From Microbacterium sp. BH-3-3-3 (lineage in GTDB: Bacteria; Actinomycetota; Actinomycetes; Actinomycetales; Microbacteriaceae): a stretch of 64,000 nt of DNA. Location of the stretch: the NCBI RefSeq assembly GCF_001792815.1, contig NZ_CP017674.1, forward strand, positions 2,170,001-2,234,000. Reading direction: 5' to 3'. The position numbers and the translations under genes were made by a program. Below, in pieces: positions 6,635 to 32,358 of the stretch (position 1 is the stretch's first letter; each line of letters begins with the position of its first letter). Under the pieces are notes generated by a model, which was not told the origin of the DNA, did no database searches, and saw nothing but the letters and a program-made list of their open reading frames with translations.

Positions 6635-6751
6635 GGCATCCAGCCTACTTTCGTGCGCCGACATCGATGAGCGTGCGAGCGGCCGGCGCTGTGCCCACCC
6701 GGCGCCGGAGACGCCGGGCGCGCCGCAGCCCACCCCTCTAGACTCGACGCC

Positions 6752-7330
6752 GTGACCACCGCCTCCACTCCCGAGCTCGAAGCCGACCGTCAGGCGCTCA
6801 TCCGCCTCATCTCCGACGAGGCGGTGTTCCACGGCGACTTCACCCTCTCGAGCGGCAAGAAGGCGACGTACTACGTCGACATGCGAAAGCTCACCCTCGA
6901 CCACCGTGCCGCCCCCGCGATCGGGCGTCTCGTGCTCGACCTCGTCAAAGACTTCGACGGCGTCGTCGCCGTCGGCGGGCTCACGCTCGGCGCCGACCCC
7001 ATCGCCAACGCCGTCATGCACGAGTCGGTGCACGCCGGCCGTCCGCTCGACGCGTTCGTCGTGCGCAAAGAGGCGAAGGACCACGGTCGCGGTCGTCAGA
7101 TCGAGGGGGCCGACATCGTCGGCAAGCGCGTCGTCGTCGTCGAAGACACCTCCACCACCGGGCAGTCGGCGCTCAAGGCCGTCGAGGCGCTGCGCCGCGA
7201 GGGCGCGGAGGTCGTGGCCGTCGCCGTGATCGTCGACCGCAAGACCGGCGCACAGGCCGCGATCGAGGCCGAGGGCCTGCAGTGGCTCGCCTCGGTCGAC
7301 CTCGACGACCTGGGGCTCGCGCCGCAGTAG
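6752..7330 (+). CDS. pyrE: Orotate phosphoribosyltransferase
   Basis: A 192-residue protein with a GTG start at 6752. It transfers ribose-5-phosphate from PRPP to orotate, giving OMP in de novo pyrimidine synthesis. The PRPP-binding signature is 'VVVVEDTSTTGQSAL' (residues about 129-143), the flexible catalytic loop contains 'RKEAKDHGRGRQIEG', and 'DFTLSSGKKATYYVDMRKLT' is the orotate/PRPP-side N-terminal block. Length is normal for actinobacterial PyrE. No other pyr gene is nearby, which is common since pyrE often sits apart from the pyr operon. Downstream, 7331-7482 contains no gene. Confidence 0.97.
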   Translation: MTTASTPELEADRQALIRLISDEAVFHGDFTLSSGKKATYYVDMRKLTLDHRAAPAIGRLVLDLVKDFDGVVAVGGLTLGADPIANAVMHESVHAGRPLDAFVVRKEAKDHGRGRQIEGADIVGKRVVVVEDTSTTGQSALKAVEALRREGAEVVAVAVIVDRKTGAQAAIEAEGLQWLASVDLDDLGLAPQ

Positions 7331-7482
7331 TCGGATCGCCGCGCCGCCCGTCCGCGCCCGTCACGAGAACGGGGCCCACGACGCGAACACGCCGCCGCGG
7401 CGTGAGTCGGTGGCGCCGCCTGTCTCCTGACGCGGTCCGACCCACGGACGCCGGGCCCCGGCGCGCCGCCTCGATCCCGCCC

Positions 7483-7632
7483 TCAGGGCGAGTCGTCTCC
7501 CGGCCCCGGCCCATCGAACGGATCGCGGCCCCCGCCGCCGCGGCGCGACCGTCTCCACTGCACCACGAACGCGACGAGCGTTCCCAGGGTGATGAAGAAG
7601 GCGACGATCAGCCAGAGCGTGCGGTCGTCCAT
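7483..7632 (-). CDS. Small single-pass membrane protein, unknown function
   Basis: A 49-residue open frame with ATG at 7630-7632, preceded by a GAGAGGA ribosome site about 6 nt upstream, and stop TGA at 7483-7485. It reads as one hydrophobic segment (residues about 6-24, 'LWLIVAFFITLGTLVAFVV'), then a basic stretch (QWRRSRRG) and a Gly/Asp/Pro-rich tail ending GDDSP. The positive-inside rule puts the tail in the cytoplasm. It lies 26 nt downstream of the NagD-like phosphatase gene on the same strand and could be cotranscribed with it. I do not recognise a family; the ribosome site and amphipathic logic support it as a real gene. Confidence 0.6.
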   Translation of the reverse strand: MDDRTLWLIVAFFITLGTLVAFVVQWRRSRRGGGGRDPFDGPGPGDDSP

Positions 7633-7658
7633 GCGGTCGTCCTCTCGGTGGGGGCGGC

Positions 7659-8489
7659 TCAGAGACCCGCTTCGAGGCCCTCTTCGCCGTCGGCGAGGTC
7701 GGTCTCGAGGGGCTCCTGGCGAACGAGTTCGGCGATCGAGCCGAGGATCTCGTCGGGGCGGAAGGGGTAGCGCTCGATCTCGCGCTGGTCGCTGATGCCG
7801 GTGAGCACGAGCACGGTGTGCAGGCCCGCCTCGATGCCGGCGACGATGTCGGTGTCCATGCGGTCGCCGATCATGCCGGTGTTCTCGCTGTGCGCGCCGA
7901 TGCGGTTGAGCGCCGAGCGGAACATCATCGGGTTGGGCTTGCCCACGATGTAGGGCTCTTTGCCGGTCGCCTTGGTGATGAGGGCGGCGATGGCGCCCGT
8001 GGCGGGCAGCACACCCTCGGTCGACGGGCCCGTGGCGTCGGGGTTCGTCGCGATGAAGCGGGCTCCGCCGCGGATGAAACGGATGGCCTTGGTGATGGCC
8101 TCGAACGAGTAGTTGCGCGTCTCACCGACCACCACGTAGTCGGGAGCGGTCTCGGTCATGATGAACCCGGCCTCGTGCAGGGCCGTCGTCAGACCCGCTT
8201 CGCCGATGACGAAGGCGGATCCACCGGGCATCTGCGACTTGAGGAAGTCGGCCGTCGCGAGCGCCGACGTCCAGATCGACGCCTCGGGCACGACCAGGCC
8301 GGACGCCCGCAGCCGCGCGCTGAGGTCACGCGGGGTGAAGATCGAGTTGTTGGTCAGCACGAGGAACGGAGTGCCCTCGGAGCGCCACTGCGCGAGCAAC
8401 TCGGACGCTCCCGCGATGGGGGTGTTCTCGTGGACGAGAACGCCGTCCATGTCGGTGAGCCAGCACTCGATGTCGCCTCGGGTCCGCAT
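7659..8489 (-). CDS. HAD-IIA family phosphatase (NagD-like)
   Basis: A 276-residue HAD-superfamily hydrolase. Motif I is D13-M-D15-G ('LTDMDGVLV'), with Asp13 the expected nucleophile; motif II is 'LVLTNNS'; motif III/IV are 'IVGKPNPMMF' and 'MIGDRMDTDI'. The class IIA cap lies between motifs II and III. NagD-like enzymes dephosphorylate small phosphomonoesters such as UMP, p-nitrophenyl phosphate or glycolytic side products in the cytoplasm; the natural substrate cannot be told. The Glu-rich C-terminus ('DLADGEEGLEAGL') is an odd but modest extension. It is followed by a 49-residue membrane protein on the same strand. Confidence 0.9.
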   Translation of the reverse strand: MRTRGDIECWLTDMDGVLVHENTPIAGASELLAQWRSEGTPFLVLTNNSIFTPRDLSARLRASGLVVPEASIWTSALATADFLKSQMPGGSAFVIGEAGLTTALHEAGFIMTETAPDYVVVGETRNYSFEAITKAIRFIRGGARFIATNPDATGPSTEGVLPATGAIAALITKATGKEPYIVGKPNPMMFRSALNRIGAHSENTGMIGDRMDTDIVAGIEAGLHTVLVLTGISDQREIERYPFRPDEILGSIAELVRQEPLETDLADGEEGLEAGL

Positions 8490-8581
8490 GCGGCCAGCCT
8501 AGCCCCGGCCTCCGACGCGCCGCCGGAACGAGCGCGGGCGGGCACGACCGAAGTCGATGCCCGCCCGTCCGCGATGGCGGA

Positions 8582-8752
8582 TTACTTGAAGGTGTCCTTG
8601 ACGTTCTCGCCGGCCTTCTTGGCATCCGCCTTCACCTGGTCGGCCTTGCCCTCGGCGGCCAGCTTGTCGTTGTCGGTCGCGTTGCCGATGGCTTCCTTCG
8701 CCTTGCCCACGATGTCCTGAGCGGCGTTCTTGATCTTGTCGTCGAGACCCAT
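8582..8752 (-). CDS. CsbD-family stress protein
   Basis: A 56-residue protein with ATG at 8750-8752, preceded by a perfect AAAGGAG about 6 nt upstream; stop TAA at 8582-8584. The composition (Lys/Ala/Asp/Glu rich, no Cys or aromatic except one Phe) and the 'MGLDDKIKNAAQDIVGKAKE' opening with later 'AEGKADQVKADAKKAGE' match the CsbD family (PF05532). CsbD is a general-stress protein in Bacillus; its molecular role is unknown. It is divergent from the SDR gene at 8945, and the 192 nt between them hold both promoters. Confidence 0.85.
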   Translation of the reverse strand: MGLDDKIKNAAQDIVGKAKEAIGNATDNDKLAAEGKADQVKADAKKAGENVKDTFK

Positions 8753-8944
8753 GGCCTGACTCCTTTACCTGTCGTGACGGCGTCGGCGGCGGGTGTTCGT
8801 CGCGACGGAGCGGGTGCGCTCGGGGATAAGACGAGACGACGGGACGATTCGTCACGCGATGTTCGGAAAATTTTCCCGCGTGCCGATATTCCTCGTACGG
8901 AATGCACCCGTGACGGCGGCCCACGATCTGGTTAGGGTCGAAGG

Positions 8945-9892
8945 GTGGCGCGCACCGAATGGGACCCCGAGAACCTCCCCGACCTCACGGGGCGCTCCTA
9001 CCTGGTCACGGGAGCCACCCGCGGCCTCGGCTTCTTCTCGTGCGTGCAGCTCGCCGCCGCCGGAGCCCACGTGGTGCTGACCGGACGCAACCCCAACGCC
9101 CTCGCCGCGGCGAAGGCCGCCGTCACGCGCGGTGATCCGGATGCCGACATCGAGACGCTGCTGCTCGACACCAGCAACATGGGGTCGGTGCGGGCGGCGG
9201 CCGCCACCGCCCGCGCACGCGGCCGGCTCGACGGTCTGCTGCTGAACGCCGGCGTGGTGCATCCGCCCAAGACCCGTGAGATGGCCGGCGGGCACGAGCT
9301 CGTGTTCGCCACCAACGTGCTGGGGCACTTCGCCCTGGCAGGCGAGTTGCTCAAGCCCCTCGCCACGGCCCGGGGCCGCATGGTCTGGGTGGGGAGCATG
9401 TCGACCTCGCTGTGGAGGCACGTTCCCACCGACCCCGAGCTCACCGAGGGCTACACCCCGTGGCGCGCGTACGTGCAGTCGAAGGCGGCGACGACCGCCC
9501 TGGCGCTCGAGGCCGACCGGCGGCTGCGGGCCCACGACGTGCCCGTCGAGAGTCTCGTCGCGCACCCCGGTTACTCCACGAGCGGGCGCACCCGCGGCAT
9601 CCGGGGCGTGAACGAGCCGACGCGGCTCGAGCGCTTCCTCGACAACCTGCAGGCGCCCATCACCCAGTCCAAGGAGCACGGCGCCTGGGCGCTGGTGCGG
9701 GCGCTCGTCGACCCGCACGCCGAGGGCGGGGCGATGTACGGGCCGGCACTCGTCGCGCGGGGCGCCCCGCGCCCGGCCACGCCCGCGCGCCGCATCCGCG
9801 GGAGCGAACTCGGCGCCGAGCTGTGGCGCGCGTGCGAGACGGCGACGCACGTGCGCTGGCCGTTCGACCGCGCGCGGCGCGCGGCGTCGTGA
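8945..9892 (+). CDS. SDR-family NAD(P)-dependent oxidoreductase
   Basis: A 315-residue short-chain dehydrogenase with a GTG start. Rossmann features are 'TGATRGLGF' (TGxxxGxG), 'LLLNAGV' (NAG motif) and the catalytic 'YVQSK' (YxxxK), with Ser upstream in 'VGSMST'. The C-terminal 'AHPGYSTSGRT' and 'GALYGPA'-like end resemble retinol-dehydrogenase/WW-oxidoreductase-type SDRs that act on hydrophobic alcohols or aldehydes. The substrate is unknown. The TGR-N motif after beta-2 ('VLTGRNPNAL') suggests NADP(H) preference. It stands alone upstream of the P-type ATPase with a 42-nt gap. Confidence 0.88.
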   Translation: MARTEWDPENLPDLTGRSYLVTGATRGLGFFSCVQLAAAGAHVVLTGRNPNALAAAKAAVTRGDPDADIETLLLDTSNMGSVRAAAATARARGRLDGLLLNAGVVHPPKTREMAGGHELVFATNVLGHFALAGELLKPLATARGRMVWVGSMSTSLWRHVPTDPELTEGYTPWRAYVQSKAATTALALEADRRLRAHDVPVESLVAHPGYSTSGRTRGIRGVNEPTRLERFLDNLQAPITQSKEHGAWALVRALVDPHAEGGAMYGPALVARGAPRPATPARRIRGSELGAELWRACETATHVRWPFDRARRAAS

Positions 9893-26782: not shown

Positions 26783-28255
26783 TTACGGTCGCCGGCGCGT
26801 CCGCGGTGGCGGAACGCCTCGAACCATACGAGTGGACAGCGCGTCGACCTCCCGCACAGAGAAGAGAGGCGCGCGGAAGGTGCGTGGCATGCCTGCGTAG
26901 TAACTCAAACAGACCAGGAGGGGATGGCTCAAAAAGCGGGTTGTCGCGATGACGTGTACAGCCCCGGCGGACAGAATCGTTTGCCGTTGGACTAGGTGGC
27001 TGATGAGAAGGGCGACTCGGTCGGACTCCGGATTGGCGTGCAGCCGTGAGCAGAGAACCCTGCTTGCGGGCCAGACCAGCGCGATAGCGAACCCCCCCGC
27101 TGCGAGAATCAGTGCAGGCGACCACCCCCAACCAGAGGTAGTCCACCCGGCGAGCACCGCTGCGGCGCTTATCGATGCGAGCACTGCAACGCCCGTGCCG
27201 ACTGCGCGGAAGCCACGGTCCGCCGTGAGCAGTGGTGTCGACGGATCCTCCCCGAACGCTTCGTGCAGGAGACGCTCCACGCTTCGTCGAGGGAGTGACG
27301 GAAGCACGAGGTTCGTTCCGGCTTGCGCTGCCGAGTCCGTCGTCAACAAAGACAGTCGAACCCGGCCGAGTGCCGTCTCGACAATGTTGCGCTGAAGAAC
27401 GACACCGATGGTCGCCTGCGGCGAGACACTCCGAACGTGGGTGGAGAGAAGACCGTAGGAGATCACGAGGCGTCCGTCCCCGGCTCGCCGCACCTCGAAG
27501 TTCGCGTATCGGAACACTGTCAGAAGAACTCCGAGGGTGCCGATGACTCCGATGAGGACGAACGCCCACGCGGCCGGCGTGAGGCGGATCCATCCTGCGA
27601 TCACCTTGTCGACCGAAAACGTCTGCAACCACTCAGAAAAGGCCATCGCCGCTCCACCGCCGATGAGTGCAAACTGCCCGTAGACCACGCTGGCCAGAAG
27701 CAGTTGGCCGATTCGCGCGCGGTACAGAAGAAGGTCTTCGGTCTTCGCGTCCCCGACCGCCTCCGTATGCCCGTCGCTGACTGCCCGCTGAGCGGCGTGC
27801 ACCGTTCGGTGGATGGATGCTGTCACGTCGTGGTGAAGAGCGTCGTCGGCGGCCCACAAAGACACTTTCGTCCGCTCATCTCCTGCCTGGGACAACGTCA
27901 TCGCGCGCAGGCGCCACGGGACAAACGCCCAAGGCTGGCGGCTGTCGACAGTGCCGACGTCGGTCCACGCGAGGGTCTGTTCTCGGCGGTGGACGGCGCC
28001 GGTTCGCACGATCAAATGTGTGGGAGTAAGGGTGATGCGAGTGAACGCCCAACGCCAGGCCGGTTCAAGGGCGAGCACGCTGATCAACGGACCCAACGCG
28101 AGCCACGCCCACGCCCCGGGCCAGACTCCCGGCGCGAAGATGGCGATTGCGCCCGCCGAGAGCCCGCCGATCAGTTTCGGTGCAGCTTCTAGATATGCCG
28201 CCGGGAGGTAATGCCGCGGCAAGCGCCGGGTTGCCGTTTCAGTCCGTTCACTCAT
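26783..28255 (-). CDS. Tandem bacterial PH-domain membrane protein of the bacteriocin locus (YdbT-like)
   Basis: A 490-residue protein starting at ATG 28253-28255, which overlaps the stop of the preceding PH-domain gene (ATGA). It contains pairs of hydrophobic segments (about residues 28-62, 185-215, 225-250, 360-400) and two or three bPH2/DUF304-like blocks, such as 'RITLTPTHLIVRTGAVHRREQTLAWTDV' and 'VRRAGDGRLVISYGLLSTHV'. This is the YdbS/YdbT-type PF03703 architecture. PF03703 proteins accompany leaderless bacteriocins of the aureocin A53/lacticin Q type and are linked there to self-immunity and export; the role here is inferred from that and from the neighbouring peptide and ABC genes. 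The C-terminus is Arg/Pro rich. Confidence 0.78.
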   Translation of the reverse strand: MSERTETATRRLPRHYLPAAYLEAAPKLIGGLSAGAIAIFAPGVWPGAWAWLALGPLISVLALEPAWRWAFTRITLTPTHLIVRTGAVHRREQTLAWTDVGTVDSRQPWAFVPWRLRAMTLSQAGDERTKVSLWAADDALHHDVTASIHRTVHAAQRAVSDGHTEAVGDAKTEDLLLYRARIGQLLLASVVYGQFALIGGGAAMAFSEWLQTFSVDKVIAGWIRLTPAAWAFVLIGVIGTLGVLLTVFRYANFEVRRAGDGRLVISYGLLSTHVRSVSPQATIGVVLQRNIVETALGRVRLSLLTTDSAAQAGTNLVLPSLPRRSVERLLHEAFGEDPSTPLLTADRGFRAVGTGVAVLASISAAAVLAGWTTSGWGWSPALILAAGGFAIALVWPASRVLCSRLHANPESDRVALLISHLVQRQTILSAGAVHVIATTRFLSHPLLVCLSYYAGMPRTFRAPLFSVREVDALSTRMVRGVPPPRTRRRP

Positions 28256-28779
28256 TCGAGTGGCTCTGCACGGGTCAGCAGCACCGTGGTACGCGCGAGC
28301 TCTGCGGCGCTCCACTCGAGCGGACGCAAGGCTTCGACTTCGGAGATGCACGTGAACCTGACGCTTACGACGTCGAACATACGGAGCAGGGGCCCTTGGA
28401 CAATCTCGACGTTCAGAATCTGCGCGGTGGGGATCGTCGTGCTACGGCGCCAGAGCCAGCCGCGACTGATGTAGACGAAGTCGGGAGTCACCGTGTAACT
28501 ACAACTCTGCACTTCTTTGCGGTTGAGCCACGGCAACTCGATGCACAAGGAGATGATGGCGAGCGCGGCGACGACCGAGCCAAGGATGCCGCGCCACATC
28601 ACATCAGGGAGGAAGCAGATTCCACCTCCCAGCACTGCCACAGCCGCGGCTGTGCTGAACCCCGTCCGGACGTTGAGGTAGTTGAGCGCGCGAGGAGCCA
28701 GCGAACTGTTGCCCGGTGCGTTCTGCGTCGGTGGCGGGCCCTGAAGGGGAAGCTGCGTCGGCCGTACGGATGGCGACAC
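28252..28779 (-). CDS. Single bacterial PH-domain membrane protein of the bacteriocin locus (YdbS-like)
   Basis: A 175-residue protein. GTG 28777-28779 is chosen because a perfect AAAGGAG lies 5 nt upstream; the longer frame has no such site. Two adjacent hydrophobic segments (about residues 39-78) are followed by a bPH2 block: 'CSYTVTPDFVYISRGWLWRRSTTIPTAQILNVEIVQGPLLRMFDVVSVRF'. That is the YdbS pattern of PF03703. The stop overlaps the start of the 490-residue PH protein, so the two are translated together, as in ydbS-ydbT pairs. Likely part of producer self-protection against the peptide at 30708-30902. Confidence 0.78.
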   Translation of the reverse strand: MSPSVRPTQLPLQGPPPTQNAPGNSSLAPRALNYLNVRTGFSTAAAVAVLGGGICFLPDVMWRGILGSVVAALAIISLCIELPWLNRKEVQSCSYTVTPDFVYISRGWLWRRSTTIPTAQILNVEIVQGPLLRMFDVVSVRFTCISEVEALRPLEWSAAELARTTVLLTRAEPLE

Positions 28780-28870
28780 GGCGCTCCTTTCGCATCGTCG
28801 GGCTGAGGAAGGTGCGGGGGTCTGCGACTCCCAGTCAGTTTCGAGAAGCGGGCGCGTAGCATCAGGATGC

Positions 28871-28884
28871 TTCCTCTCGATCCG
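28871..28884 (-). promoter_or_regulatory. Second copy of the bacteriocin leader motif, upstream of the PH operon
   Basis: On the minus strand CGGATCGAGAGGAA is identical over 14 nt to the sequence just before the bacteriocin gene (30908-30921), and the flanks also agree so that 18 of 20 bases match. Here it lies 92 nt before the PH-domain gene start. It may mark a shared regulatory element or a remnant duplication of the leader. Confidence 0.45.
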
Positions 28885-28894
28885 ATTGGAGCAC

Positions 28895-28926
28895 CTGGCT
28901 GGCGCCTTGACCGAGGCGCCAGCCAG
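28895..28926 (-). terminator. Hairpin between the ABC permease and PH-domain genes
   Basis: Perfect 13-bp stem: CTGGCTGGCGCCT (28895-28907) and AGGCGCCAGCCAG (28914-28926), 6-nt loop. It begins 27 nt after the permease stop. It should end or attenuate the peptide-exporter transcript; the T-rich flank is on the other side (ACTTTT at 28927 on the plus strand), so the direction of action is uncertain. Confidence 0.6.
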
Positions 28927-28952
28927 ACTTTTCTCGTGGCAAGATCTCGTCC

Positions 28953-29684
28953 TCACTGCACGTCGGCCCTCTGGTGGCGAACAAAACCTGTGGTGAGCGG
29001 AACGACAAGCCAGAGCACACCAGCACTGATCGCAGGTGTGAGCTGTCCGCTTCCGCTGACGAATTCACTGATCGCGGCCAGGCGGAACCACGAGCCGGCG
29101 CCGTGAGGGACGAGCATCAGGAGCGGATCGAGAGCAAAACCTTGAATGAGAGAAAAGACGATGGCGATGACGACGCGCTGCGTCGCGGCCGCGTAGGCAA
29201 GGCCCGAGATCATGCCGACAGCCGTACCGCCGAGCAAAAGCGCGACGGTGGAGGTATCGGTGTTCCATCCAACGCCGGAGCCTGTCGCCAGCGCAAGCGA
29301 TACCGCCAAGACGACCACGAAGACGGCGGCGAAGATCACGAGCGCCAGGCAGACGATGAGCACCGTCATCGCCTTCGCGAAAAAGACGATGTGACGTCGT
29401 GGTTCGAGGGTGAACGTCGTCATCACGTCGCGTGACTGCCAGTCGGCCGCAACAATCAAGATCGCCAGGATCGGAACGAAGACGGTCACAGCAGAACCAA
29501 CGCCTAGGAGTGCGCCTGCGATGCTTACCGACCCCGGGTCGAGCAAGAGATTGATCGCGGCGACTCCTGCCCCGACGACAACCCATAAGGACACCGTGAT
29601 GCCGAGAGTCCAACGGATCCCGCGCGTCGTCCGCACGTTGCGGAGCTCGGCATGCAGGCAACGGGTGAAGCGAGCTGTCGACAC
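28953..29684 (-). CDS. ABC transporter permease of the bacteriocin locus
   Basis: A 243-residue protein with six hydrophobic segments (about residues 25-48, 57-80, 100-128, 138-160, 168-185, 205-230). GTG 29682-29684 is taken as start, 4 nt after the ATPase stop; upstream in-frame codons belong to the ATPase gene. The amphipathic N-terminus ('RFTRCLHAELRNVRTTRG') is typical of ABC-2 type permeases. Together with the ATPase it forms an exporter without a peptidase domain, as expected for a leaderless peptide, comparable to LnqEF/AucEFG. No strong ribosome site is seen, so expression probably relies on coupling. Confidence 0.78.
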   Translation of the reverse strand: MSTARFTRCLHAELRNVRTTRGIRWTLGITVSLWVVVGAGVAAINLLLDPGSVSIAGALLGVGSAVTVFVPILAILIVAADWQSRDVMTTFTLEPRRHIVFFAKAMTVLIVCLALVIFAAVFVVVLAVSLALATGSGVGWNTDTSTVALLLGGTAVGMISGLAYAAATQRVVIAIVFSLIQGFALDPLLMLVPHGAGSWFRLAAISEFVSGSGQLTPAISAGVLWLVVPLTTGFVRHQRADVQ

Positions 29685-29688
29685 TCCA

Positions 29689-30624
29689 CTACTGGTGAGT
29701 AGCAATGGCGTCTCCTTCGACTCGGTACTCGCCTCGTGTGAGGCGGCGGTACACATCGCTGATGGACTCACGGTCTTCACCGAGCTCGTCGATGAGGATG
29801 CTCTCGGAGATGCAGATCTTGCTCAGGGACCGGGGGTCGGTTCCGACGAAGAACCGGCTCGACCCCCGGTCGAATTTGAATGACAGCGCGCGAGACTGCA
29901 GCGCCCGCATCATGGCATCGGGGTCAACGGCGACAACCGTCGTGCTCGTCTCGGGGCTGAGCTGACCGACTTCTCCAACGTATCGAATCGTCCCCTCGCT
30001 GAGCACAACGATACGGTCGGCGAAGGTCTGAAGTTCTTCAAGGAGATGCGTCGAAACGAGCACGGAGCCGCCGGTCGCGTGCGCGTGCTGTATCAGGGTC
30101 GTTCGAAGCCAGTCCGCGGTTTCGATATCAAGACCGTTCATCGGCTCATCGAGGATGAGGTGCCGAGGACTGCCCATGAGAGCCAAGGCCAGGGCGAGGC
30201 GTTGCTTCATCCCCAGGGAGAGCGCGCCGAATCGACGATGCGAAGCTGAGGCGAGGCCGAGAATGGCGATCAGTCCACGCGCGCGTTCTATCGGGACGCC
30301 AGCCAGTACTGCGGCGCTGGAAAGAGTGTCTTCGACGCTGCGTCCCGGGTGGTGGGCTGTGGGGTCGAGGAGTGCCCCGACACAGCGCCCGGGCTGCGGA
30401 AGGTCGCGGTAAGGAATGCCATCAAACGTCGTCGATCCTGAGCCTGTGAGGGTCAGCCCAAGCATTGCGCGCATAACCGTGGACTTCCCGGACCCGTTCG
30501 GGCCGAGGAGACCCGTGATGGTCCCGGCGGGGACATCGAAGGTGATGTCATCGAGGACCCGCTTCTTGCGGTAGCTCTTGCTGACACCCGTCACTTGTAT
30601 GCCTGTGTCGTGCTCGCGCGGCAT
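29689..30624 (-). CDS. ABC transporter ATPase of the bacteriocin locus
   Basis: A 311-residue protein starting at ATG 30622-30624 with GAGGAG 6 nt upstream. Walker A is 'GPNGSGKST', the signature reads 'LSLGMKQR' and Walker B is 'HLILDEPMNGLD', followed by the switch His in 'LVSTHLLEE'. The domain is of the CcmA/BcrA type used in peptide antibiotic export and immunity. About 90 residues follow the nucleotide-binding domain. It lies between the structural gene (83 nt upstream, past a hairpin) and the permease (4 nt downstream). Role: energising secretion of, and probably protection against, the leaderless peptide. Confidence 0.88.
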   Translation of the reverse strand: MPREHDTGIQVTGVSKSYRKKRVLDDITFDVPAGTITGLLGPNGSGKSTVMRAMLGLTLTGSGSTTFDGIPYRDLPQPGRCVGALLDPTAHHPGRSVEDTLSSAAVLAGVPIERARGLIAILGLASASHRRFGALSLGMKQRLALALALMGSPRHLILDEPMNGLDIETADWLRTTLIQHAHATGGSVLVSTHLLEELQTFADRIVVLSEGTIRYVGEVGQLSPETSTTVVAVDPDAMMRALQSRALSFKFDRGSSRFFVGTDPRSLSKICISESILIDELGEDRESISDVYRRLTRGEYRVEGDAIATHQ

Positions 30625-30661
30625 GCGTTGCTCCTCATTTCTCTTGGGGGCGAAGTGATCA

Positions 30662-30702
30662 ATCCGGATAGGACGGCACATATGATGCCGCCCCATCCGG
30701 AT
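30662..30702 (-). terminator. Attenuator-like hairpin right after the bacteriocin gene
   Basis: Arms 30662-30678 and 30686-30702 form a 17-bp stem in which, on the transcribed strand, all positions pair (two as G.U), with a 7-nt loop. It starts 5 nt after the peptide stop codon and lies 38 nt before the ATPase start. Such a structure would let most transcripts stop or be stabilised after the peptide gene, giving more peptide than exporter. Confidence 0.75.
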
Positions 30703-30707
30703 GCCCC

Positions 30708-30902
30708 TCAGCCGATACCGAGGCTGCGGAGAATCCACTCGACGATCGTGCCGAAGGAGATACCCGCATTGATCCACTCGAGCACGCGACGCCAGTTGTT
30801 ACGCGCCCACGCGACGATCCGTTCTACTTGGCTGGCTACCCATCTGCCCCAGCGGCCGATGTTTGCCCAAACCCAGGAGATGAACCGAAGAACTGCCCCC
30901 AT
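30708..30902 (-). CDS. Leaderless class II bacteriocin, aureocin A53/lacticin Q type
   Basis: A 64-residue peptide from ATG 30900-30902, preceded by GAGAGGA about 8 nt upstream. It has eight Trp (10, 12, 18, 21, 32, 37, 43, 56), eight Arg, three Glu, no Lys, Asp or Cys: net charge about +5. The C-terminal half 'RRVLEWINAG' then 'TIVEWILRSLGIG' lines up with the W-(L/I)-N-(A/V)-G and EW/DW positions of lacticin Q, aureocin A53 and epidermicin NI01. There is no GG leader, Sec signal or modification enzyme, and an ABC exporter plus PH-domain proteins follow, as in those loci. It should be made with its formyl-Met, fold into four amphipathic helices (saposin-like) and attack membranes of related bacteria. 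It is about ten residues longer than the Firmicute members (51-53). Activity is inferred. Confidence 0.85.
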   Translation of the reverse strand: MGAVLRFISWVWANIGRWGRWVASQVERIVAWARNNWRRVLEWINAGISFGTIVEWILRSLGIG

Positions 30903-31214
30903 GATGTTTCCTCTCGATCCGTTGATTTCTGTCAACGGCGATGCGTTCGTGACCGCGATCGCAGCGCCGAGGGTGACGCTAGCCAGGCCGTCGTAGGTAT
31001 TTCTTGACCTGAAAGACCCACGGTTGGACGCGGGGGGCGCAACCTGAACCCACCGAAAGGCGCAACCGCAGGGTGGGTGATACCGCCCCGGGACTGAACA
31101 GACCTGGGGCCTCTGTCGACCGACGCGCGCCGCGATTACGCTCCGAGGGGTTGTGACCCTTGGGTGCGGACGCCTGCAGCGCGGCGCCAGAGCACCCGTG
31201 ACGGAAGGACTCTT
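30903..31214 (-). promoter_or_regulatory. Upstream region of the bacteriocin operon
   Basis: 312 nt without a credible gene. Nearest the peptide gene lie the GGATCGAGAGGAA ribosome-site/leader motif (30908-30920) and a perfect 7-bp hairpin, CCGTTGA/TCAACGG (30919-30925 with 30932-30938, 6-nt loop), just before it. The AT-richer stretch around 30990-31010 (minus strand reads AAGAAATACCTACG) could hold the promoter, but no clear -35/-10 pair is visible. The divergent 68-residue membrane protein gene starts at the far end, so it may carry a second promoter. Confidence 0.4.
30919..30938 (-). promoter_or_regulatory. Small hairpin in the bacteriocin mRNA leader
   Basis: CCGTTGA (30919-30925) and TCAACGG (30932-30938) pair perfectly around a 6-nt loop, ending where the GGATCGAGAGGAA ribosome region begins. 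It could stabilise the 5' end or control access to the ribosome site. Confidence 0.5.
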
Positions 31215-31421
31215 GTGGCCGGAATGAAGCGGACCATCGCAGACGGCGCAGCGCTCGTCGCCCTGTGCGTAGTAGCAGCGGCAGTGAACATCGCGCTCGC
31301 GGTCTTCACCGATGTCGATGCCCCAATACGGTGGGGCGCCACCGTTTCTTGTGGCGTGGTCGCCGCCGCGACGACGTTCGCCATTGTTTCGCGAGTGAAG
31401 CGCACACGCCGCGGGCAGTAG
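31215..31421 (+). CDS. Small two-helix membrane protein, unknown function
   Basis: A 68-residue protein starting at GTG 31215, 5 nt behind a GGAAGGA site (31203-31209). Two hydrophobic segments (about residues 10-30 and 37-55) are connected by a short acidic loop 'FTDVDAPIRWG', and the C-terminus is basic (VKRTRRGQ). It is divergent from the bacteriocin gene and convergent with the response regulator. Small two-helix proteins are common as bacteriocin immunity proteins, but nothing else supports that here. No family recognised. Confidence 0.6.
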   Translation: MAGMKRTIADGAALVALCVVAAAVNIALAVFTDVDAPIRWGATVSCGVVAAATTFAIVSRVKRTRRGQ

Positions 31422-31452
31422 GACCGGTCGCAGTCGACCTGCGCATCAGTGC

Positions 31453-32115
31453 TCAGGGAATGCGAACGACGCCCGTTGATGCCGCGTAGAGAAGAACCTG
31501 GATACGATCGCGAGCGCTCCACTTCGTCATGATGCGACGCAGATGCGACTTAACCGTGGCTTCAGACAGAAAGAGGCTTTGACCGATCTCGGCGTTGGAC
31601 ATGCCCTGGGCGAGGAGCTCGAGTACATCGCGTTCGCGACGTGACACCTGCTCGCCCTCGCTCAGAGTACGACTCGGCTGATTGTCTGCTGACGTACCAA
31701 TTCGCCGGATGAGCGCGCGGCCGGCGATGGGTGAGAGCACGAATCCACCGTGATGGGCGCTGCGTATCGCCGCCGTGATGTGCTCCGGCTCCGAGTCCTT
31801 CACGAGAAAGCCGACCGCCCCGGCACGGAGAGCAGCTACCACCGTTTCGTCGGACCGGTACGTGGTGAGAGCAACGCAGCGTGTCAGCGGGAGGGCTGTT
31901 GCGACCCGTTCAATCGCAGTTATTCCATCGCCGCCCGGCATCCGGACGTCCATCAGCACTACGTCGGGACCGAGGGCGATGCTCTGATCGACGGCACTCG
32001 GCCCGTCGCTCGCCTCACCGACGACTTCCAACTCGGACTCAGCGTCGACGAAGAGGCGAAGCGCACGGCGGACAAGCGCCTCGTCGTCGGCGATGAGGAC
32101 GCGGATCGGTTGCAT
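31453..32115 (-). CDS. NarL/LuxR-type response regulator
   Basis: A 220-residue two-component regulator starting at ATG 32113-32115. The receiver domain has the acidic pair D10-D11, the phosphoacceptor D56 ('LMDVRMP'), Thr in 'ALTTYRS' and Lys in 'FLVKDSE'. The C-terminal LuxR helix-turn-helix is 'LSRRERDVLELLAQGMSNAEIGQSLFLSEATVKSHLRRIM'-like (residues about 150-200). No histidine kinase gene is adjacent, so it is an orphan in this window. It lies in the low-GC island upstream of the bacteriocin genes and on the same strand; it may control them, but this is only positional inference. The 243 nt upstream (32116-32358) contain no gene. Confidence 0.9.
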   Translation of the reverse strand: MQPIRVLIADDEALVRRALRLFVDAESELEVVGEASDGPSAVDQSIALGPDVVLMDVRMPGGDGITAIERVATALPLTRCVALTTYRSDETVVAALRAGAVGFLVKDSEPEHITAAIRSAHHGGFVLSPIAGRALIRRIGTSADNQPSRTLSEGEQVSRRERDVLELLAQGMSNAEIGQSLFLSEATVKSHLRRIMTKWSARDRIQVLLYAASTGVVRIP

Positions 32116-32358
32116 TCGAGCAGCGTATGTGGCGGCTTCTCGGCGGCCGTCGCAAAATCTCTGCCGCCCGGCGCGTGTCCCTGATGGGGCAACGCGTGAC
32201 GCACGCGACAACCGCAGCGTTCTTCCCTTAGTTCATCCCGGTCGTCACCCCGGACTCGATCTCGGCATCGCCTCCGGGCGAAGCGAGATGAGGACGCGGC
32301 GCTGGTGAGGGTGCCGGTCGATGCCTCCGGCGCCCGCACCGGCGGCTACCCTGCCCTC

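Follow-up and report, generated by a model that had tools for sequence, protein, structure and literature searches.

Among the closest described relatives of the locus reported here are the loci for lacticin Q (lnq) and aureocin A53 (auc), whose LnqC/D and Orf7/8 proteins are homologous to YdbS and YdbT, a pair of PH-domain membrane proteins in which the short member has two transmembrane (TM) segments and one PHb2 domain and its long neighbor six TM segments and three PHb2 domains (PMC8657885). Two PH proteins related to YdbS and YdbT have been argued to export enterocin DD14 (PMC8657885), for which the PH pair is described as the primary exporter, an ATP-binding cassette (ABC) transporter as secondary exporter and as protection from outside, and DdD as the immunity protein (PMC13262744). 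The immunity candidate for aureocin A53 is a cationic membrane protein, AucIA (PMC8538875). How a producer survives a leaderless bacteriocin that is active in its own cytoplasm is poorly understood (PMC13262744). In Actinomycetota, a 2024 survey reports 97 aureocin A53-like peptides, with Microbacterium among the genera, seven multi-peptide operons in Microbacterium, one clade with a Microbacterium peptide as its representative, and activity of two synthesized peptides on Lactococcus, and gives no characterized producer as known in actinobacteria (PMC11580447). We analyzed a 64,000-nucleotide stretch of Microbacterium sp. BH-3-3-3 (NZ_CP017674.1, positions 2,170,001 to 2,234,000; hereafter the window), and propose that it probably carries a horizontally acquired, self-contained leaderless bacteriocin locus of the aureocin A53/lacticin Q type, with its own regulation, export, and immunity.

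The window shares a peptide family, a PH pair, and an ABC transporter with the lnq and auc loci, and differs from them in having its ABC genes ahead of its PH genes; it encodes a NarL-type response regulator, whereas lacticin Q has the TetR-type LnqR (PMC6131525). The geobacillin 6 locus also combines the peptide with YdbS-like and YdbT-like PH proteins and ABC genes, but its order, peptide-PH-PH-ABC, is that of other Microbacterium loci and not of the window, and no regulator was found there (PMC10311245). Peptide family, adjacent PH proteins, and ABC transport are common to the Actinomycetota loci of the survey (arcanocin, arachnicin, and the Microbacterium peptides), and a DNA-binding response regulator is reported for its Brevilactibacter locus, as in the window (PMC11580447). 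Enterocin DD14 has the same proposed division of labor, with PH export, an ABC transporter, and a separate membrane immunity protein (PMC8657885, PMC13262744), but is a two-peptide bacteriocin, unlike the product of the window.

An original prediction, made from the letters alone, placed five genes (peptide, ATPase, permease, and two PH proteins) on the minus strand and called the locus complete. All five are where it put them. Its locus was nevertheless drawn too short: because it stops at 30902, it misses the regulator and TM65, and the locus holds a tandem repeat besides. The features are as follows.

26797–32323, no strand: inserted cassette, 5.5 kb
30708–30902, minus strand: gene for a 64-residue aureocin A53-type peptide, with its ATG at 30902
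29689–30624, minus strand: ABC ATPase, 311 residues
28953–29684, minus strand: ABC permease, 243 residues from the likely start GTG 29684
28252–28779, minus strand: PH1, YdbS-like PH-domain membrane protein, 175 residues from the likely start GTG 28779
26783–28255, minus strand: PH2, YdbT-like PH-domain membrane protein, 490 residues
31224–31421, plus strand: TM65, candidate immunity protein, a cationic membrane protein of 65 residues with two helices
31453–32115, minus strand: NarL-type response regulator, 220 residues
31036–31066, minus strand: tandem repeat GTTGCGCC-N15-GTTGCGCC, candidate regulator binding site

Peptide family and the inserted cassette

The peptide passes NF033881, the NCBI equivalog model for the aureocin A53 family that served as the test of membership (42.1 bits, cut-off 27); its score against Pfam PF11758, given alongside, is 16.8 bits, below the cut-off of 25. 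With eight Trp in 64 residues and a net charge of +5, it is cationic and Trp-rich. Its predicted structure is a four-helix bundle, in keeping with the compact four- to five-helix fold of aureocin A53-type peptides, and aligns with the solved structures of epidermicin, aureocin A53, and lacticin Q (nine chains compared, these three entries being the matches listed); it is not an unrelated TM hairpin. A profile search of the PDB also gave matches in the aureocin-type family. The full frame from the ATG aligns with the entire mature chains of solved relatives, and the peptide is putatively leaderless. Together with the relatives described below, these results bear out the assignment of the original prediction, an aureocin A53/lacticin Q-type locus in an actinobacterium, on the profile and structure checks that it had proposed. 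A weak match to NF040841 (22.8 bits) could instead suggest that the peptide is secreted as an elicitor or signal, like AMEP412. That score is below the model's cut-off of 45, whereas NF033881 was passed, and the neighboring genes are those of bacteriocin loci; we consider an elicitor or signal highly improbable.

Searching 5.8 billion proteins with the peptide returned five full-length relatives (84, 84, 86, 88, and 59% identity), and differences from the relative in the Microbacterium genome G015 are mostly synonymous (dN 0.13, dS 0.75); on these two grounds the gene is more than a chance reading frame. Two of the five relatives, from Microbacterium, are already named 'aureocin A53 family class IId bacteriocin', and a 2024 paper had already described such loci in Actinomycetota, with Microbacterium among the genera (PMC11580447), so that the locus is of a known kind, with possibly a new immunity family attached, and the novelty implied by the original prediction falls away. 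That survey was the only paper on such loci, judged by title, among the matches listed by a literature search on Microbacterium leaderless bacteriocins, and its available portion contains no mention that we could find of a TM65-like protein or a tandem repeat.

A scan of genome contigs with the peptide found three loci, in Microbacterium oleivorans CD11_3 (L001), Microbacterium sp. 11MF (L002), and Leifsonia sp. ALI-44-B (L003). Every count obtained by searching genomes is a minimum, and the samples include the window's own genome (G000). At least 7 of 295 genus genomes match the single peptide sequence, and an eighth, G075, was recognized by inspecting the frames that precede its PH genes; because the single-sequence search missed G075, failure to detect a peptide in G056, G232, and others does not establish its absence. 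A peptide profile matched at least 2 of 199 family genomes (G000 and G423) and at least 2 of 248 order genomes (G000 and G596). The G200 peptide is 40% identical to that of the window over its length, and one G077 peptide 48% over a shorter length. Divergent aureocin-like peptides stand with PH genes, and without TM65, in G077 (L034 7925–8337), G075 (L033 6870–7070), and G596 (L077 8202–8610), two peptides each in G077 and G596; they belong to other subfamilies, an assignment made after the fact by length and alignment. The peptide start in the window is preceded by GGATCGAGAGGAA, with a copy at 28871–28883 upstream of PH1 and near copies in relatives. No aureocin-like frame follows the 28871–28883 copy, which we rejected as the start of a second peptide, and the peptide profile found no second peptide gene among window frames of at least 25 residues.

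The cassette occupies a site that is empty in G006, G007, G009, and G020, which match the window to 26788–26796 and again from 32323–32345, depending on the relative, with 53–184 bases between; G016 has a similar-looking site with about 258 bases between. GC content is 63.7% inside the cassette against 71.6% and 72.4% outside, and GC at third codon positions (GC3) is 0.71–0.77 for the seven cassette genes against 0.94–0.96 for three flanking genes, presumably encoding an SDR, a dipeptide epimerase, and a glycyl-tRNA synthetase. The PH2 stop codon lies within sequence matched by the empty sites, which means that this gene is completed by the host flank. G015 carries its cluster away from its copies of the flanking genes.

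Read along the minus strand, the order is regulator, peptide, ATPase, permease, PH1, and PH2, with TM65 on the plus strand. This order recurs in L001, L002/G119, and G015, where the regulator, ATPase, permease, and PH proteins are 58–75% identical. The original prediction held that the order differs from that in Firmicutes, which is correct in that ABC precedes PH in the window; this is no actinobacterial rule, as the peptide is followed by PH genes in G113, G200, G227, G075, G077, a Leifsonia, and G596. In L003, G113, and G227, peptide-PH1-PH2 is followed by an ABC ATPase of 35–37% identity, G200 has the peptide before the PH genes with an ATPase match (42%) some 3 kb further on, and in G075 and G077 the peptide precedes PH1. 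G596, which belongs to another family, encodes two peptide matches along with PH1, PH2, and a 46% match to the regulator, with no TM65 within 13 kb around the locus.

The PH and ABC pairs

By analogy with characterized relatives, we infer a division of labor in which the response regulator, on some cue, would bind the tandem repeat and switch on the peptide operon, and perhaps also the divergent TM65 gene. The peptide would be active as translated and attack the membranes of neighboring Gram-positive bacteria. The PH pair would be the main exporter, the ABC pair would clear peptide from the membrane of the producer (efflux immunity), and TM65 would act as a dedicated small cationic immunity protein, in the role of AucIA, AurI, or DdD elsewhere. 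The cassette offers three separable candidate protections in the PH pair, the ABC pair, and TM65, and since natural part-copies exist (G233 and G008 keep TM65, and G056 and G232 the regulator and ABC genes, in each case without a detected peptide), these roles are testable.

Both gene pairs are tightly spaced, as originally predicted: a 4-nucleotide gap separates the ATPase TAG from the permease GTG at 29684, and the PH1 and PH2 genes overlap by ATGA. The permease and PH1 starts are likely on spacing and ribosome-binding sites. The predicted PF03703 domains were found in both PH proteins, at 46.1 bits in PH1 and 33.7 bits, over two stretches, in PH2. Compared with YdbS/YdbT, PH1 has two hydrophobic segments and one PF03703 stretch, and PH2 four segments over threshold and two passing stretches; no solved structure was matched by sequence search with PH1. 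The ATPase matches PF00005 (87.5 bits), and its best NCBIfam match is a lantibiotic-protection ABC ATPase model (151 bits, below the cut-off of 310). The permease has six hydrophobic segments by a simple hydropathy scan and no Pfam or NCBIfam match above cut-off.

PH proteins and an exporter widely conserved without such a peptide were named in the original prediction as evidence that would count against it. For the PH proteins the opposite is seen: among the 295 genus genomes PH2 has seven strong matches (E 6e-45 or better), every one adjacent to an aureocin-like peptide frame. Two weak matches occur in the same sample, in G111 (E 8e-5) and G248 (E 1e-3). Carriage on plasmids was discounted: a tblastn search of 72,556 plasmid records with PH2 gave no match. 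For the exporter, two of five close permease homologues, in G056 and G232, are without a peptide that we could find. These two genomes keep a regulator 72%, an ATPase 75–76%, and a permease 64–65% identical to those of the window (L031 of G056, 6671–9181; L032 of G232, 6988–9498), with no peptide or TM65 in the 14 kb around and no peptide match genome-wide; their PH matches are weak (E 7e-4 and 1e-6) and far from the regulator-ABC genes. This set is perhaps a stand-alone resistance module.

These observations bear on the alternative in which export falls mainly to the ABC pair, a role that the lacticin Q authors suggested for LnqEF (reported in PMC8657885), with the PH proteins as accessories. 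In its favor, G000, G015, G119, L001, L002, L003, G113, G200, and G227 each have an ABC ATPase match inside the locus or at most a few kb away. Against it, enterocin DD14 is exported primarily by its PH pair (PMC13262744), and the ABC pair, being kept with its regulator and without a detected peptide in G056 and G232, fits protection better than export. We therefore regard main export by the ABC pair as unlikely and retain the PH pair as the putative exporter.

TM65 as a candidate immunity protein

TM65 has two hydrophobic segments and a net charge of +5, and its gene lies between those for the regulator and the peptide, divergent from the latter. AucIA is described with three transmembrane regions against two in TM65; TM65 may act like an immunity protein of the AucIA/AurI type and is not classed as one. 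TM65 matches no Pfam family over cut-off; a profile search of proteins, in which 8,000 candidates were scored, found at least 28 members, the window's own included, none of the 28 with a Pfam domain, and the relatives among the matches listed are named 'hypothetical' or 'uncharacterized'. Pairwise dN/dS values are 0.07–0.50, with several dS near or above 1.

A five-member profile found TM65 in the window, L001, L002, L003, L035 (G113, two copies), L036 (G200), L037 (G227), L038 (G015), and L039 (G119), which makes eight loci because L002 and L039 are one, and gave no match in L031–L034 (G056, G232, G075, and G077). TM65 is on the strand opposite to the peptide in five loci (the window, G015, G119, L001, and Leifsonia) and downstream of it on the same strand in G113, G200, and G227. 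At least 10 of the 295 genus genomes carry TM65, with the peptide in G000, G015, G113, G119, G200, and G227 and without it in G008, G161, G233, and, partially, G099, where the match covers 34 residues, did not recur in a frame scan, and was counted as positive. The genome searches for TM65 scored no more than 20 or 24 preliminary candidates in each genome. TM65 is thus in the locus in six of eight peptide genomes, of whatever subfamily, against matches in 4 of 287 others (Fisher 6.6e-9, which ignores relatedness; 3.4e-6 with a close trio counted once).

In G233 (L059 7735–7935), TM65 stands alone, in the window's orientation, flanked by counterparts (92% and 89.5% identical) of the two genes next to the window's cassette. 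Either the cassette was lost around TM65 or TM65 was present first; both fit an orphan immunity gene and neither proves it. A lone TM65 in G008 (L058 7787–8008) adjoins a DUF2277 gene at another site, with no peptide found. In G161 (L060 5840–10784), a TM65-like frame (40 bits) has ABC ATPase matches nearby, together with a PF07730 histidine kinase and a regulator that shares 49% identity with that of the window, possibly a related resistance locus with its kinase.

We tentatively propose, at close to an even chance, that TM65 founds a new immunity family for leaderless bacteriocins of Actinomycetota, which moves within and between cassettes and can remain alone, as in G233 at the site of the window's cassette, as an orphan immunity gene against peptide-making neighbors; a regulator-ABC module with the same candidate site would likewise be kept alone in two species. 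A literature search on orphan immunity of this sort returned nothing on the subject, judged by title and abstract. Several observations weigh against an immunity role and would suit an accessory to export, or a small envelope protein that travels with the cassette: the lone copies in G008 and G233 and the weaker one in G161, weak relatives in G563 and G649, near which no peptide frame was detected, and the absence of TM65 from the three divergent peptide loci (G075, G077, and G596). Yet TM65, rare as it is in the genus, occurs in eight loci at differing places, and twice in G113. Its GC3 of 0.74 is that of the cassette and not of the flanks, and purifying selection acts on it even in lone copies. 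A non-immunity role is nonetheless a substantial possibility, which we place somewhat below even.

Regulator, tandem repeat, and hairpins

The regulator combines PF00072 and PF00196, has the usual receiver residues, and is 72–75% identical in G015, G119, L001, and L002; no kinase gene was seen beside it in the window. Its candidate binding site, the tandem repeat, occupies the intergenic region from which the peptide and TM65 genes diverge. Among the 16 genomes searched, G000, G015, G119, G056, and G232 each have a single copy of the pattern RTTGCGYC-N15-RTTGCGYC, located downstream of the regulator gene and ahead of the operon that follows; G008 has one copy at another place, and the other 10 have none; the reversed pattern, as a control, was found in none of the 16. 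This shared repeat provides a handle on how such loci are switched on in actinobacteria.

Rfam and tRNA scans of the window gave no matches. Two hairpins lie between genes of the operon.

30655–30705, minus strand: hairpin between the peptide and ATPase genes (−33.5 kcal/mol, z −6.0)
28886–28930, minus strand: hairpin between the permease and PH1 genes (−29.4 kcal/mol, z −5.1)

A role as attenuators, suggested by structure alone, was set aside; neither is followed by a T run, and both hairpins are also present in the relatives aligned.

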